Source of the DNA: Solitalea lacus
GTDB taxonomy: Bacteria > Bacteroidota > Bacteroidia > Sphingobacteriales > Sphingobacteriaceae
NCBI RefSeq assembly: GCF_022014595.1
Contig: NZ_CP091740.1
Span: forward strand, 2,902,200 to 2,966,199
Direction of reading: 5' to 3'
Length of the DNA: 64,000 bases
Part shown: piece by piece, positions 25,830 through 29,498 of the stretch
Position numbering within the stretch: position 1 is the stretch's first letter
How the letters are laid out: each line of letters starts with the position of its first letter
The notes under the pieces: model-generated
Told to the model about the DNA's origin: nothing
Database searches by the model: none
The model's input: only the letters and a program-made list of their open reading frames with translations
Position numbers and translations under genes: made by a program

Positions 25830-26960
25830 ATGAAGTTTGATTTAGTAGCAACCGATAACGCCTCCAGCGCCCGGGCAGGGTTAATGCAAACCGACCACGG
25901 AACGATAGAAACCCCGATTTTTATGCCGGTAGGGACTGCAGGGACGGTTAAAGCGGTTCATCAGCGCGAATTAAAAGAAGATATTGAAGCGCAAATTATC
26001 TTAGGTAATACCTATCATTTATACCTCCGACCAGGATTAGACACAATTCAAAAAGCGGGCGGTATTCATAAATTTAATGGCTGGGAAAGGCCAATTTTAA
26101 CAGATAGTGGTGGATACCAGGTTTATTCCCTGGCCGATATTCGTAAAATAAAAGAACACGGAGCTACCTTTCAATCCCATATCGATGGGTCAAAACATTT
26201 ATTTACCCCCGAAAATGTAATGGATATACAAAGGGTAATTGGCGCCGATATCATTATGGCATTTGATGAGTGTACTCCATATCCTTGTGATTATTCTTAC
26301 GCCCGTAAATCCATGGAGATGACTCACCGTTGGTTAAAGCGCTGTTGCGAACGATTTGATACCACAGAGGGTTTGTATGGATATAATCAGACATTATTCC
26401 CAATTGTACAAGGCAGTACATATAAAGATCTTCGTATACGTTCTGCCGAAACCATTGCCTCTTTTGAGCGCGAAGGAAATGCTATCGGTGGATTATCGGT
26501 AGGTGAACCGGCTCCTGAAATGTACGAGATGACAGAAATAGTGTGTAACATCTTACCAAAAGCTAAACCCCGATATCTAATGGGTGTAGGTACTCCTATG
26601 AATATTTTGGAGTGTATAGCATTGGGCATTGATATGTTTGATTGTGTTATGCCGACAAGAAATGCTCGTAATGGAATGTTGTTTACAAAGCATGGTATCA
26701 TCAACATTAAAAATGAGAAGTGGAAAAACGACTTTTCTCCAATTGATGAAACCAGTGACTTGTATGCCGATCAGGTGTATACCAAAGCCTATTTAAGACA
26801 CTTATTACAATCAAAAGAGATTTTAGGGGCCCAAATTGCCTCGTTGCATAATTTGCATTTTTATTTATGGTTGGTTAAGGAAGCTCGTATGCATATTATT
26901 CAAGGAGATTTTATTCAATGGAAGAATAAAATGGTTGTTGATATGGCAAAAAGATTATAA
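25830..26960 (+). CDS. tgt: tRNA-guanine transglycosylase (queuosine pathway)
   Basis: 376 residues. TDSGGYQ holds the general base Asp (about residue 91) and FDCVMPTRNARNG the nucleophilic Asp (about 270). QGSTYKDLR and GGLSVGEP also match. It exchanges guanine-34 for preQ1 in GU(N)-anticodon tRNAs. Oddly, the C-terminal zinc site (normally C-x-C-x2-C then His) reads SPIDETSDLYADQVYTKAY here: no cysteines remain although RHLLQ follows. The zinc site therefore appears to be lost while the rest of the enzyme is intact. Confidence 0.94.
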   Translation: MKFDLVATDNASSARAGLMQTDHGTIETPIFMPVGTAGTVKAVHQRELKEDIEAQIILGNTYHLYLRPGLDTIQKAGGIHKFNGWERPILTDSGGYQVYSLADIRKIKEHGATFQSHIDGSKHLFTPENVMDIQRVIGADIIMAFDECTPYPCDYSYARKSMEMTHRWLKRCCERFDTTEGLYGYNQTLFPIVQGSTYKDLRIRSAETIASFEREGNAIGGLSVGEPAPEMYEMTEIVCNILPKAKPRYLMGVGTPMNILECIALGIDMFDCVMPTRNARNGMLFTKHGIINIKNEKWKNDFSPIDETSDLYADQVYTKAYLRHLLQSKEILGAQIASLHNLHFYLWLVKEARMHIIQGDFIQWKNKMVVDMAKRL

Positions 26961-26962
26961 AT

Positions 26963-27014
26963 TTGAATATTCATTTATTGAATCAATGTGATTTTCAATA
27001 TTTGAATATTCAAA
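26963..27014 (+). promoter_or_regulatory. Two palindromic operator candidates before the double-HTH regulator
   Basis: TTGAATATTCA (26963-26973) and the perfect 14-bp palindrome TTTGAATATTCAAA (27001-27014), centres 39 bp apart. The second ends 2 bp before the ATG. Two more copies lie inside the gene. Confidence 0.6.
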
Positions 27015-27016
27015 TT

Positions 27017-28297
27017 ATGTATACAGATTTTGATTATAGTCATTTAAGAGTTACTAGGGAGCAACTAGGATTAACTCAAAAAGAGGCCGCTAACGCCTCA
27101 GGAATAAGCCAAAGGGATATTTCGCAGCTCGAATCGGGGCTTAAGAAGTTTTTTCCTTTGGCTTATATTCTTTTTTTGAATCACAATGGTGTAAATTTGA
27201 ATATTCTATTTTCGAATACTTTGAATATTCAAAATTTGATAACAAATCGATTGGGACGTATTCGCTCCATCGACCCTGAAACTATTCAATTTAATTACTC
27301 CGTATTCAAAATAGCCAGAGAAAAGGTTGGATTAACTCAAAAACAAGCCTCTGAACGCTCAGGACTGTCACAACGCGATATATCTCAACTAGAAGCAGGG
27401 TTAAAGAAATTTATTCCCTATCAGTTTATTCAATATCTAATGAATATTAAAGCTGATTTAAACCAGGTTTTCAGCTATTCACCACCAGAGCCTAAAAATG
27501 GTATAAGTACTCCTATTCAACCAAATTTACAGCCTAAAAACCCCGAATTTTCAGTAAAAAACAAAACCCCTGAGAATCGCATATTTGAAACACAACTGAC
27601 CATTGATACGGAATATTCAAAAGACAATGCCTCTGAAATTTCACCTGAATTATCTCTTAAAGTAGACCATATAACTAATCATTCAAACAATGAGTTAAAT
27701 GATCAATTATCGATTGATAAAAATGAACCTGTAAGTGCGGTTCCGGCAAAAGAAGTTATACCGAATCTTCCGCAGCCTAAGATGGTAACAAAGGAAAAAA
27801 TCAAGTTGGAGCCAGGCATCCCTTTGATAAAAAAACTGAATACGAAGAATTACATTGAGCTATGCGCTGATGAAGATTTTCTCAATAACTTACCTTCTAT
27901 AAAACTCCATGATTTGGAAAACGGAATATTCAGAGCATTTGAAGTGAGCGGAAGAGAAATGGAACCTCTGTTTTATGAGGGAGATATTGCTGTCGGCTTT
28001 AAGGTTGATGAATTTGAATCAATGAAAAACAATGGACTGTATATTTTGGTAAATAATAAACGTATCATTTTACGCAGAATCATCAATTGTATTAAAGCTT
28101 CAAATGAACTTATCTTACTTACCGATAATGAAACAATTGCTAATGAAATATTGAAGATAAATGAACTAAAAGAAGTGTGGGAGTTTCAGCTTAAAATAAC
28201 TTCTTCTGTTGATCAGCTGAAGAACAGTTTTAATGAGTTATATTTTCAATTAATGAAGATTCAAAAAGATTTGGAAGTAATAAAAAGTAAGTTATAA
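27017..28297 (+). CDS. Regulator with two HTH_XRE domains and an inactive LexA/S24-like domain
   Basis: 426 residues from the ATG at 27017. Two near-identical XRE-type helix-turn-helix units are seen at about residues 8-60 and 92-145: LGLTQKEAANASGISQRDIS and VGLTQKQASERSGLSQRDIS, each followed by QLE(S/A)GLKKF. A long low-complexity linker leads to a LexA/S24-like domain (about 295-375, FRAFEVSGREMEPLFYEGD). There the catalytic Ser of the usual G-D-S-M is replaced (GREM), and the Lys position reads LRRI. So it cannot self-cleave in the usual way. The last 40 residues look coiled-coil. Palindromes at the start suggest autoregulation. Confidence 0.75.
   Translation: MYTDFDYSHLRVTREQLGLTQKEAANASGISQRDISQLESGLKKFFPLAYILFLNHNGVNLNILFSNTLNIQNLITNRLGRIRSIDPETIQFNYSVFKIAREKVGLTQKQASERSGLSQRDISQLEAGLKKFIPYQFIQYLMNIKADLNQVFSYSPPEPKNGISTPIQPNLQPKNPEFSVKNKTPENRIFETQLTIDTEYSKDNASEISPELSLKVDHITNHSNNELNDQLSIDKNEPVSAVPAKEVIPNLPQPKMVTKEKIKLEPGIPLIKKLNTKNYIELCADEDFLNNLPSIKLHDLENGIFRAFEVSGREMEPLFYEGDIAVGFKVDEFESMKNNGLYILVNNKRIILRRIINCIKASNELILLTDNETIANEILKINELKEVWEFQLKITSSVDQLKNSFNELYFQLMKIQKDLEVIKSKL
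27197..27233 (+). promoter_or_regulatory. Two further TTGAATATTCAA-type sites inside the regulator gene
   Basis: TTGAATATTC at 27197-27206 and the perfect 14-bp palindrome TTTGAATATTCAAA at 27220-27233, 24 bp apart, in the coding region between the two HTH domains. Confidence 0.5.
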
Positions 28298-28382
28298 CGT
28301 ATTGAAGTTTTAATACTGAAAAGCTGATTTGCATTTCCGTATTTACTCTTAAATTTGCCAGTTGCTAAAATTTTGACTGCAT

Positions 28383-29498
28383 TTGAAAAGTTTAATACAA
28401 AAGTTTAAGAAACTACTGAATATCACTCAACTGGATGAGTTTATCATCAAAAAGTTTTTAACCACCTTTTTCTTTGGGTTGGCCATTTTCGTGATTATCA
28501 TCGTAATTTTTGATATTTCTGAAAAACTGGATGATTTCCTGAAAAGTACGGCAACGATGAAAGAAATCGCCATTGACTATTATTGCAATTTCATTTTGTT
28601 TTATGTGAGTATGCTCAGCCCTCTTGTTATTTTCCTGGCTGTTATTTTCTTTACTGCAAAAATGGCTAACAACACTGAAATTGTACCCATTTTGAGCAGT
28701 GGCATAAGTTATATTCGTTTTTTGTACCCTTACTTTGTTGCTGCCACGTTTTTAGCTGTTTTAAGCTTTGTGGCTAATGCTTACATAATACCGCCATCAA
28801 CTCGCAACAAGCTAAACTTTGAACAAAAGTATATTATTAAAAAAACGGAATACAAAGGTCAAAACCGCCACTTTAAAATTGATGAAGGTAATTTTGCCTA
28901 CATACAAAGCTATGATTCAAAGGATAATAGTGGCTATAAATTCACTCTTGAGAAGTTTAAAGGTGATTCGCTTTATTACAAATTGGTTGCCAACCGTATT
29001 GCCTGGGATACAGTAAAGAAAGTATGGAGAATTGAGAATTATTCCATCAGATATACCAATGGGTTGAAGGAACGCATGGAAAGTGGTGAGAAAATGTTCC
29101 TAAAGCTTAGTCTGAATCCTCAAGACCTAGAAAAACAAGATGATGAACGAGGGGCCTTAACCCTACCTCAGTTAAATAAACAAATTAAAGTGGAAAAATT
29201 ACGTGGCACCGGGAATGTCTCTTCTTATGAAATGGACAGATGGCGCATTATTACCACTCCCATTTCCATTTTCATATTGGTTTTAATAGCCGTTACCCTA
29301 TCTTCAAAAAAAGTTCGTGGTGGTGTTGGTTTACCTTTAGGAATCGGGATCGGGTGCTCATTCGCTTATATAGTTTTGATGCAATTTGCAGTCATCTTTT
29401 CAACCAAGGGTGGGTTACCAACATATATCGCTGCCTGGATTCCGCACATTGTATTTGGTTCATTAGCTATTTATCTTTATAAAATTGCTCCTAAGTAA
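28383..29498 (+). CDS. LptF/LptG-family permease (YjgP/YjgQ)
   Basis: 371 residues: three N-terminal helices, a periplasmic beta-jellyroll (about 120-260) and three C-terminal helices, the LptF/G layout for lipopolysaccharide export. The start must be the TTG at 28383, because a stop codon lies 9 bp upstream and the first ATG is past the first helix. The 3' end overlaps the next gene by 14 bp. LptF or LptG cannot be distinguished. Confidence 0.88.
   Translation: MKSLIQKFKKLLNITQLDEFIIKKFLTTFFFGLAIFVIIIVIFDISEKLDDFLKSTATMKEIAIDYYCNFILFYVSMLSPLVIFLAVIFFTAKMANNTEIVPILSSGISYIRFLYPYFVAATFLAVLSFVANAYIIPPSTRNKLNFEQKYIIKKTEYKGQNRHFKIDEGNFAYIQSYDSKDNSGYKFTLEKFKGDSLYYKLVANRIAWDTVKKVWRIENYSIRYTNGLKERMESGEKMFLKLSLNPQDLEKQDDERGALTLPQLNKQIKVEKLRGTGNVSSYEMDRWRIITTPISIFILVLIAVTLSSKKVRGGVGLPLGIGIGCSFAYIVLMQFAVIFSTKGGLPTYIAAWIPHIVFGSLAIYLYKIAPK

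Follow-up and report, generated by a model that had tools for sequence, protein, structure and literature searches.

A probable domesticated Mu-like phage repressor between tgt and lptG in Solitalea, with operator-like dyads upstream of and inside its own gene

The window, that is, the whole 64,000-nucleotide stretch of Solitalea lacus DNA that was analysed, carries between tgt and an lptG-type permease gene a regulator gene encoding two helix-turn-helix (HTH) domains, a linker, and an S24-like C-terminal domain (Table 1). In a Pfam search, the regulator matched HTH_3 twice and Peptidase_S24 weakly, below the cut-off. HTH1 and HTH2 are 62% identical and have the core SQRDISQLE in common, which indicates that HTH2 arose by duplication. 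The positions of the catalytic Ser and Lys are occupied by GREM and RRII in the proteins of all four Solitalea species compared; both residues of the self-cleaving S24 (LexA/CI) signature are thus missing, so that self-cleavage is presumably gone and induction by this route is no longer expected. A structure model of the protein reached a pLDDT of 36 and was unusable. Full orthologues were found in the genus Solitalea only, including Solitalea longa and S. agri, the proteins being 65–67% identical within the genus. Both neighbouring genes were seen in 13 relatives outside Solitalea. In 10 of these, tgt and lptG overlap or are separated by no more than ~20 bp; the remainder have gaps of 68 and 150 bp or a call at the match limit. 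In Solitalea, the regulator gene sits between the two. The interval between the regulator and lptG (window 28298–28382) contains a promoter-like TTTG-N18-TAAATTTG of lptG itself, conserved in three of the four species.

Table 1 Features of the regulator locus (window coordinates).
Feature	Position	Strand	Remark
tgt (queuine tRNA-ribosyltransferase)	25830–26960	+	upstream neighbour
Regulator gene	27017–28297	+	426 aa; ATG at 27017
Regulator parts			HTH1, aa ~10–52; HTH2, aa ~96–140; linker; inactive S24-like C-terminal domain, aa ~307–381
lptG-type YjgP/YjgQ permease	28383–29498	+	downstream neighbour
Promoter-like TTG-N17-TAAATTTG	26938–26965	+	read from sequence; invariant in four species
Tight palindrome 1, TTGAATATTCAT	26963–26974		11/12 match
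Tight palindrome 2, TTTGAATATTCAAA	27001–27014		perfect 14 bp; ends 2 bp before the ATG
Tight palindrome 3, TTGAATATTCTA	27197–27208		11/12 match
Tight palindrome 4, TTTGAATATTCAAA	27220–27233		perfect 14 bp; flanking dyad partners weak
Candidate operator dyad TATTCAATGGAAGAATA	26912–26928		perfect; inside 3′ end of tgt; identical in 4/4 Solitalea
Candidate operator dyad TATTC-ATTTATT-GAATC	26968–26984		1 mismatch
Candidate operator dyad TTTTC-AATATTT-GAATA	26992–27008		1 mismatch
Candidate operator dyad TATTC-AAATTAT-GTATA	27007–27023		over start codon; GAATA perfect in the three other species
Candidate intragenic operator dyad TATTC-TTTTTTT-GAATC	27166–27182		over codons Y-I-L-F-L-N
Candidate intragenic operator dyad TATTC-TATTTTC-GAATA	27202–27218		perfect in 4/4 species
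Inverted repeat GGAATAAGCCAAAGG / CCTTTGGCTTATATT	27101–27115 / 27155–27169	+	HTH1 codons; possible mRNA stem; 3/4 species

The initial annotation had described four copies of a tight palindrome, TTGAATATTCAA, at and inside the regulator gene. All four are present where it placed them, separated within the pairs by the 39 and 24 bp that it gave; only the third site, listed there as a 10-base match, had to be corrected, since it matches at 11 of 12 positions. A genome-wide search found TTGAATATTCAA five times in 4,402,230 bp, twice in the regulator region, against no copy in the reversed control, and its core GAATATTC occurs four times in the 335-bp region, compared with 0.06 times in shuffles. 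The sites are conserved in related genomes, which the initial annotation had proposed as a check, with GAATATTC standing at about −50, −13, +182, and +206 in all four Solitalea genomes compared. Palindromes 1 and 2 are 39, 37, 38, and 34 bp apart in the four species, from which it follows that there is no fixed helical phase and that the upstream stretch is not coding; reading the upstream sites as coding sequence from a TTG at 26963 is thereby ruled out. No consistent helical phasing was found between the upstream and intragenic sites. Counting only positions with an invariant amino acid, and scoring those at which all four species use the same codon, 18 of 19 synonymous positions are identical in codons 53–74, as against 35 of 100 in the remainder of codons 1–155 (p = 9e-7). 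This freeze sets in at the 3′ end of tgt, continues up to codon 74, and ends directly after palindrome 4, where normal variation resumes; the fraction of identical codons in tgt is generally 0.1–0.35 (about 0.2), and 0.65 and 0.91 in its last 36 codons.

The operator unit is probably better read as a 17-bp dyad, TATTC-N7-GAATA, than as the tight palindrome. Allowing at most one mismatch, the 64 kb contain eight matches to this dyad, of which six fall within the 307 bp from 26912 to 27218, compared with a mean of 0.125 and a maximum of 2 in shuffles of the 335-bp region; when spacers of 0–20 were scanned in the same region, a spacer of 7 gave the six matches and the others gave 0–2. Each of the other Solitalea species has five dyads at the same tolerance. 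The array reaches beyond the sites noted first into the 3′ end of tgt (26912–26928), where other genera have the codons F-Y-D/E-W-K-N without the dyad. The centres of the dyads at 26968 and 27007 vary by species, and the GAAT half-site is constant except at one base of the window's copy at 27007. At the junction of two abutting dyads, GAATA runs into TATTC with TA in common, which gives GAATATTC, the core of the tight palindrome, and the palindromes TTGAATATTCAA are probably for the most part such junctions. If the tight palindrome were itself the operator, with the two HTHs of one chain bridging pairs of palindromes, the conservation of GAATATTC at all four positions and the identical recognition core of HTH1 and HTH2 would be accounted for, as would palindrome 4, which is perfectly conserved although it has only weak dyad partners, so that the dyad leaves part of the pattern unexplained. 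We nevertheless consider this unlikely, because the perfect dyad in tgt is invariant yet lacks a tight palindrome, a dyad spacing of exactly 7 is enriched, the upstream TATAC-N7-GTATA sites of the phage relatives described below are isolated, with no tight GTATATAC there, and repressors with a single HTH also have paired and intragenic sites. The last point removes the double HTH as the cause of the paired sites, which had been its suggested role: the paired upstream operators and the intragenic ones are equally present in phage repressors with one HTH, and a second HTH is unnecessary to explain either. What is strongly supported is a conserved operator array private to the double-HTH gene, with the dyad in place of the tight palindrome as its unit.

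The promoter-like element upstream of the gene presumably fits the Bacteroidota −33/−7 promoter consensus. Its −7 box is overlapped by palindrome 1, the TTTG of the box being the start of the palindrome, so that a bound repressor would cover it. The remaining perfect 12-mers in the four Solitalea genomes lie at unrelated places, none of them common between species, and perfect 17-bp dyads are at the control level genome-wide (8 versus 10 in the reversed control); a regulon of TTGAATATTCAA sites was therefore rejected. Since the outermost palindrome overlaps the putative −7 box and the other 12-mers are not shared, self-repression, as first proposed, is still the likely meaning of the array, and looping between operator sites may be involved. 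Having no shared sites elsewhere, the gene would appear to regulate only itself, or to be a remnant kept for another task, e.g., immunity.

The nearest relatives outside Solitalea are repressors of Mu-like Bacteroidota prophages (L051, L052, L053, L114, and L152), with HTH homology at E = 3e-17 and a pairwise match to L114 at 2e-27 over most of the protein; the phage collection searched for relatives of the window protein contained none. Each of these prophage repressors has a single HTH, and its S24 signature is complete (AAAG, GHSM, K-R); the repressor gene is divergent from that of a MuA-like transposase (phrog_310 in L114 and L152). The window gene has no adjacent divergent transposase gene, and its neighbourhood of tgt and lptG marks it as a derivative of a phage repressor rather than a phage gene in place. 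The regions of L051, L052, and L114 each contain exactly four perfect TATAC-N7-GTATA dyads, namely, an upstream pair 30–32 bp apart (e.g., −48/−18) and an overlapping intragenic pair at about +122 to +125 and +137 to +140, over the codons K-F-I-P-x-E-Y-I-x-F-L-Y, and L053 and L152 have a single intragenic copy. The window dyad at 27166 lies over codons matching this phage intragenic operator, and the window gene shares the phage layout, in which dyads stand upstream of the gene and another occupies set codons within it. A search of 301 Sphingobacteriaceae genomes for the 32-bp phage double operator gave two occurrences, each within this phage repressor gene (reversed control, 0). A scan of viral contigs for the composite operator gave three Bacteroidota repressor-gene loci: L206, which is the L114 phage, and L193 and L199, which have one repressor in common. 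In all three, the double operator covers the codons named above. Most of the remaining matches belong to low-complexity repeats or to one unrelated phage group (many contigs; L178–L192, L194, L195, L201–L209), in which TATAC-N7-GTATATAC-N7-GTATA stands before a small MELIERLV gene and is probably the operator of a different regulator. A perfect TATTC-N7-GAATATTC-N7-GAATA was also seen in an unrelated viral contig (L214, 3157–3188), just before a gene starting MLRIDVNTNKGAELVEIK.

The homology to Mu-like phage repressors, like the lack of a visible host regulon, would also suit a resident immunity repressor directed against incoming related phages, for which self-regulation is a mere side effect. 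The half-site GAATA is, however, unlike the GTATA of the phages found, and the composite GAATA array was found in no related viral repressor, which makes such a role, in our estimation, rather improbable.

The layout is found more widely among S24 repressors. In a motif-free dyad scan of 111 S24-repressor loci, in which three or more identical dyads were taken as a family, families of at least three copies were found at 14 loci, as against 1 of 555 shuffles; besides the TATAC group and Solitalea, these comprise TGGAA-N5 dyads at −62, −31, +55, and +142 in L147, TTAGA-N6 dyads at −59, −28, and +171 in L099, TATGA-N5 dyads at −54, −24, and +221 in L146, and the TCGAA-N6 families of L055 and L145. 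When upstream pairs were scanned for (two dyads 24–40 bp apart, for which 0 of 1090 shuffles qualify), an intragenic copy was present in 9 of 9 phage repressors with a recognisable upstream pair, with five unrelated operator words among them; L099 is counted here with a 5-base half-site, as the 7-base half-site of the pair scan misses its internal copy. A weaker instance with two copies only is TACAC-N5-GTGTA at −33 and +168, the latter within the phage repressor gene, in L092. The housekeeping S24 homologues checked had no such dyads; this holds for the repressor homologue of Solitalea (G000:C1:2243881-2244384) and likewise for nearly all Sphingobacteriaceae.

The intragenic sites might be by-products of protein coding, arising wherever Y-I-L-F-L or F-I-P-x-E-Y is encoded in AT-rich genes. 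Synonymous recoding reproduces them with a probability of 0.002–0.08 per gene, and the modest values of 0.04–0.08 for L053, L152, L146, and L009 would allow such an origin. In most genes, however, the probability is 0.002–0.02, and in L147 it is below 0.0003; moreover, five unrelated operator words each recur within their own gene, and the excess of dyad families over shuffles given above is hard to reconcile with chance coding, so that we regard this origin as very improbable.

Control at the level of the mRNA is an alternative reading. If the self-complementary sites at the start codon and at codons 61–74 paired, a large hairpin would hide the start codon, and the transcript 26974–27240 does fold much more strongly than its shuffles, with z values of −6.8, −6.7, −8.0, and −4.5 in the four species (control regions near 0), with an inner 13-bp stem in the HTH1 codons, which are more conserved than those of HTH2 (20/40 versus 8/35). 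The palindrome copies, however, pair with each other, so that part of the fold strength is automatic; there is one compensatory pair only, and 18–33 pairs fail to form in one or more of the species. L009 lacks the inner stem, and its inner region folds no better than random sequence (z 0.18); the phage relatives fold weakly (z −1.4 and −2.7), and the tgt dyad is situated 5′ of the predicted transcript. Control by such a hairpin is thus improbable, although part of the codon constraint may be exerted on the RNA, because the mRNA of this region folds unusually well.

Altogether, the best explanation, to which we assign a probability of roughly 0.7, is that the gene is a domesticated Mu-like phage repressor that represses itself through the TATTC-N7-GAATA array, including its intragenic operators. 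In the proposed course of events, the repressor of a Mu-like (transposable) Bacteroidota phage would have settled between tgt and lptG in Solitalea, and its product would bind the array of 17-bp dyads, one in the end of tgt, several across the start codon and promoter, and two or more intragenic, thereby repressing its own promoter. The intragenic site over Y-I-L-F-L-N would have been inherited from the phage ancestor, with TATAC-N7-GTATA at the same codons, and we infer that the intragenic operators may strengthen repression, either through a loop to the promoter sites or as a block to elongation. Beyond this gene, we lean slightly towards the view that the immunity switch of Bacteroidota transposable phages has intragenic operators as a standard component, a copy being kept just past the HTH whatever the operator word, so that one stretch of DNA both encodes the repressor and is bound by it, and that this design outlasted domestication in Solitalea; in the open-access literature searched, no description of a phage repressor gene containing its own operator was found. 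Operators within genes are already known. If the present reading is true, the recurrence of an own-gene operator across unrelated words would represent a design common to a phage group that has hardly been studied, one that makes a protein and its binding site evolve within a single stretch of nucleotides and renders operators predictable from sequence alone, as a repeated dyad upstream of and inside the gene. The Solitalea gene would show this design persisting after the phage is gone, and would offer a natural half-site change, GTATA to GAATA, paired with a change of the recognition helix from QKDISLLE to QRDISQLE.

The array is worth comparing with known repressor systems. The lambda operator is TATCA-N7-TGATA, and TATTC-N7-GAATA has the same geometry, the lambda/434 CI-type repressors likewise having an Xre-type HTH; the operators of the CI switches lie between genes, whereas some of those in Solitalea lie within the repressor's own coding sequence. 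Auxiliary intragenic operators are known from lac O2 in lacZ, gal OI in galE, and purR autoregulation, and the likeness lies in a repressor site in coding sequence that can add to the repression of an upstream promoter, as it would in Solitalea. In distinction from these, the Solitalea site belongs to the gene of the phage-type repressor itself and is maintained through codon choice, and intragenic sites in phage-type repressors recur across unrelated operator words. The closest likeness is to the repressors of Mu-like (fF4-like) Bacteroidota phages, which are also HTH plus S24-like proteins; the paper on fF4-like phages mentions a repressor, and the word "operator" is absent from it (PMC7761591). 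The Mu-like phage repressors found here resemble the Solitalea gene in having a pair of operators upstream and another at the corresponding codons within the gene; the Solitalea gene differs from them in its two HTHs, its dead S24 domain, the absence of phage genes around it, and its half-site of GAATA in place of GTATA.
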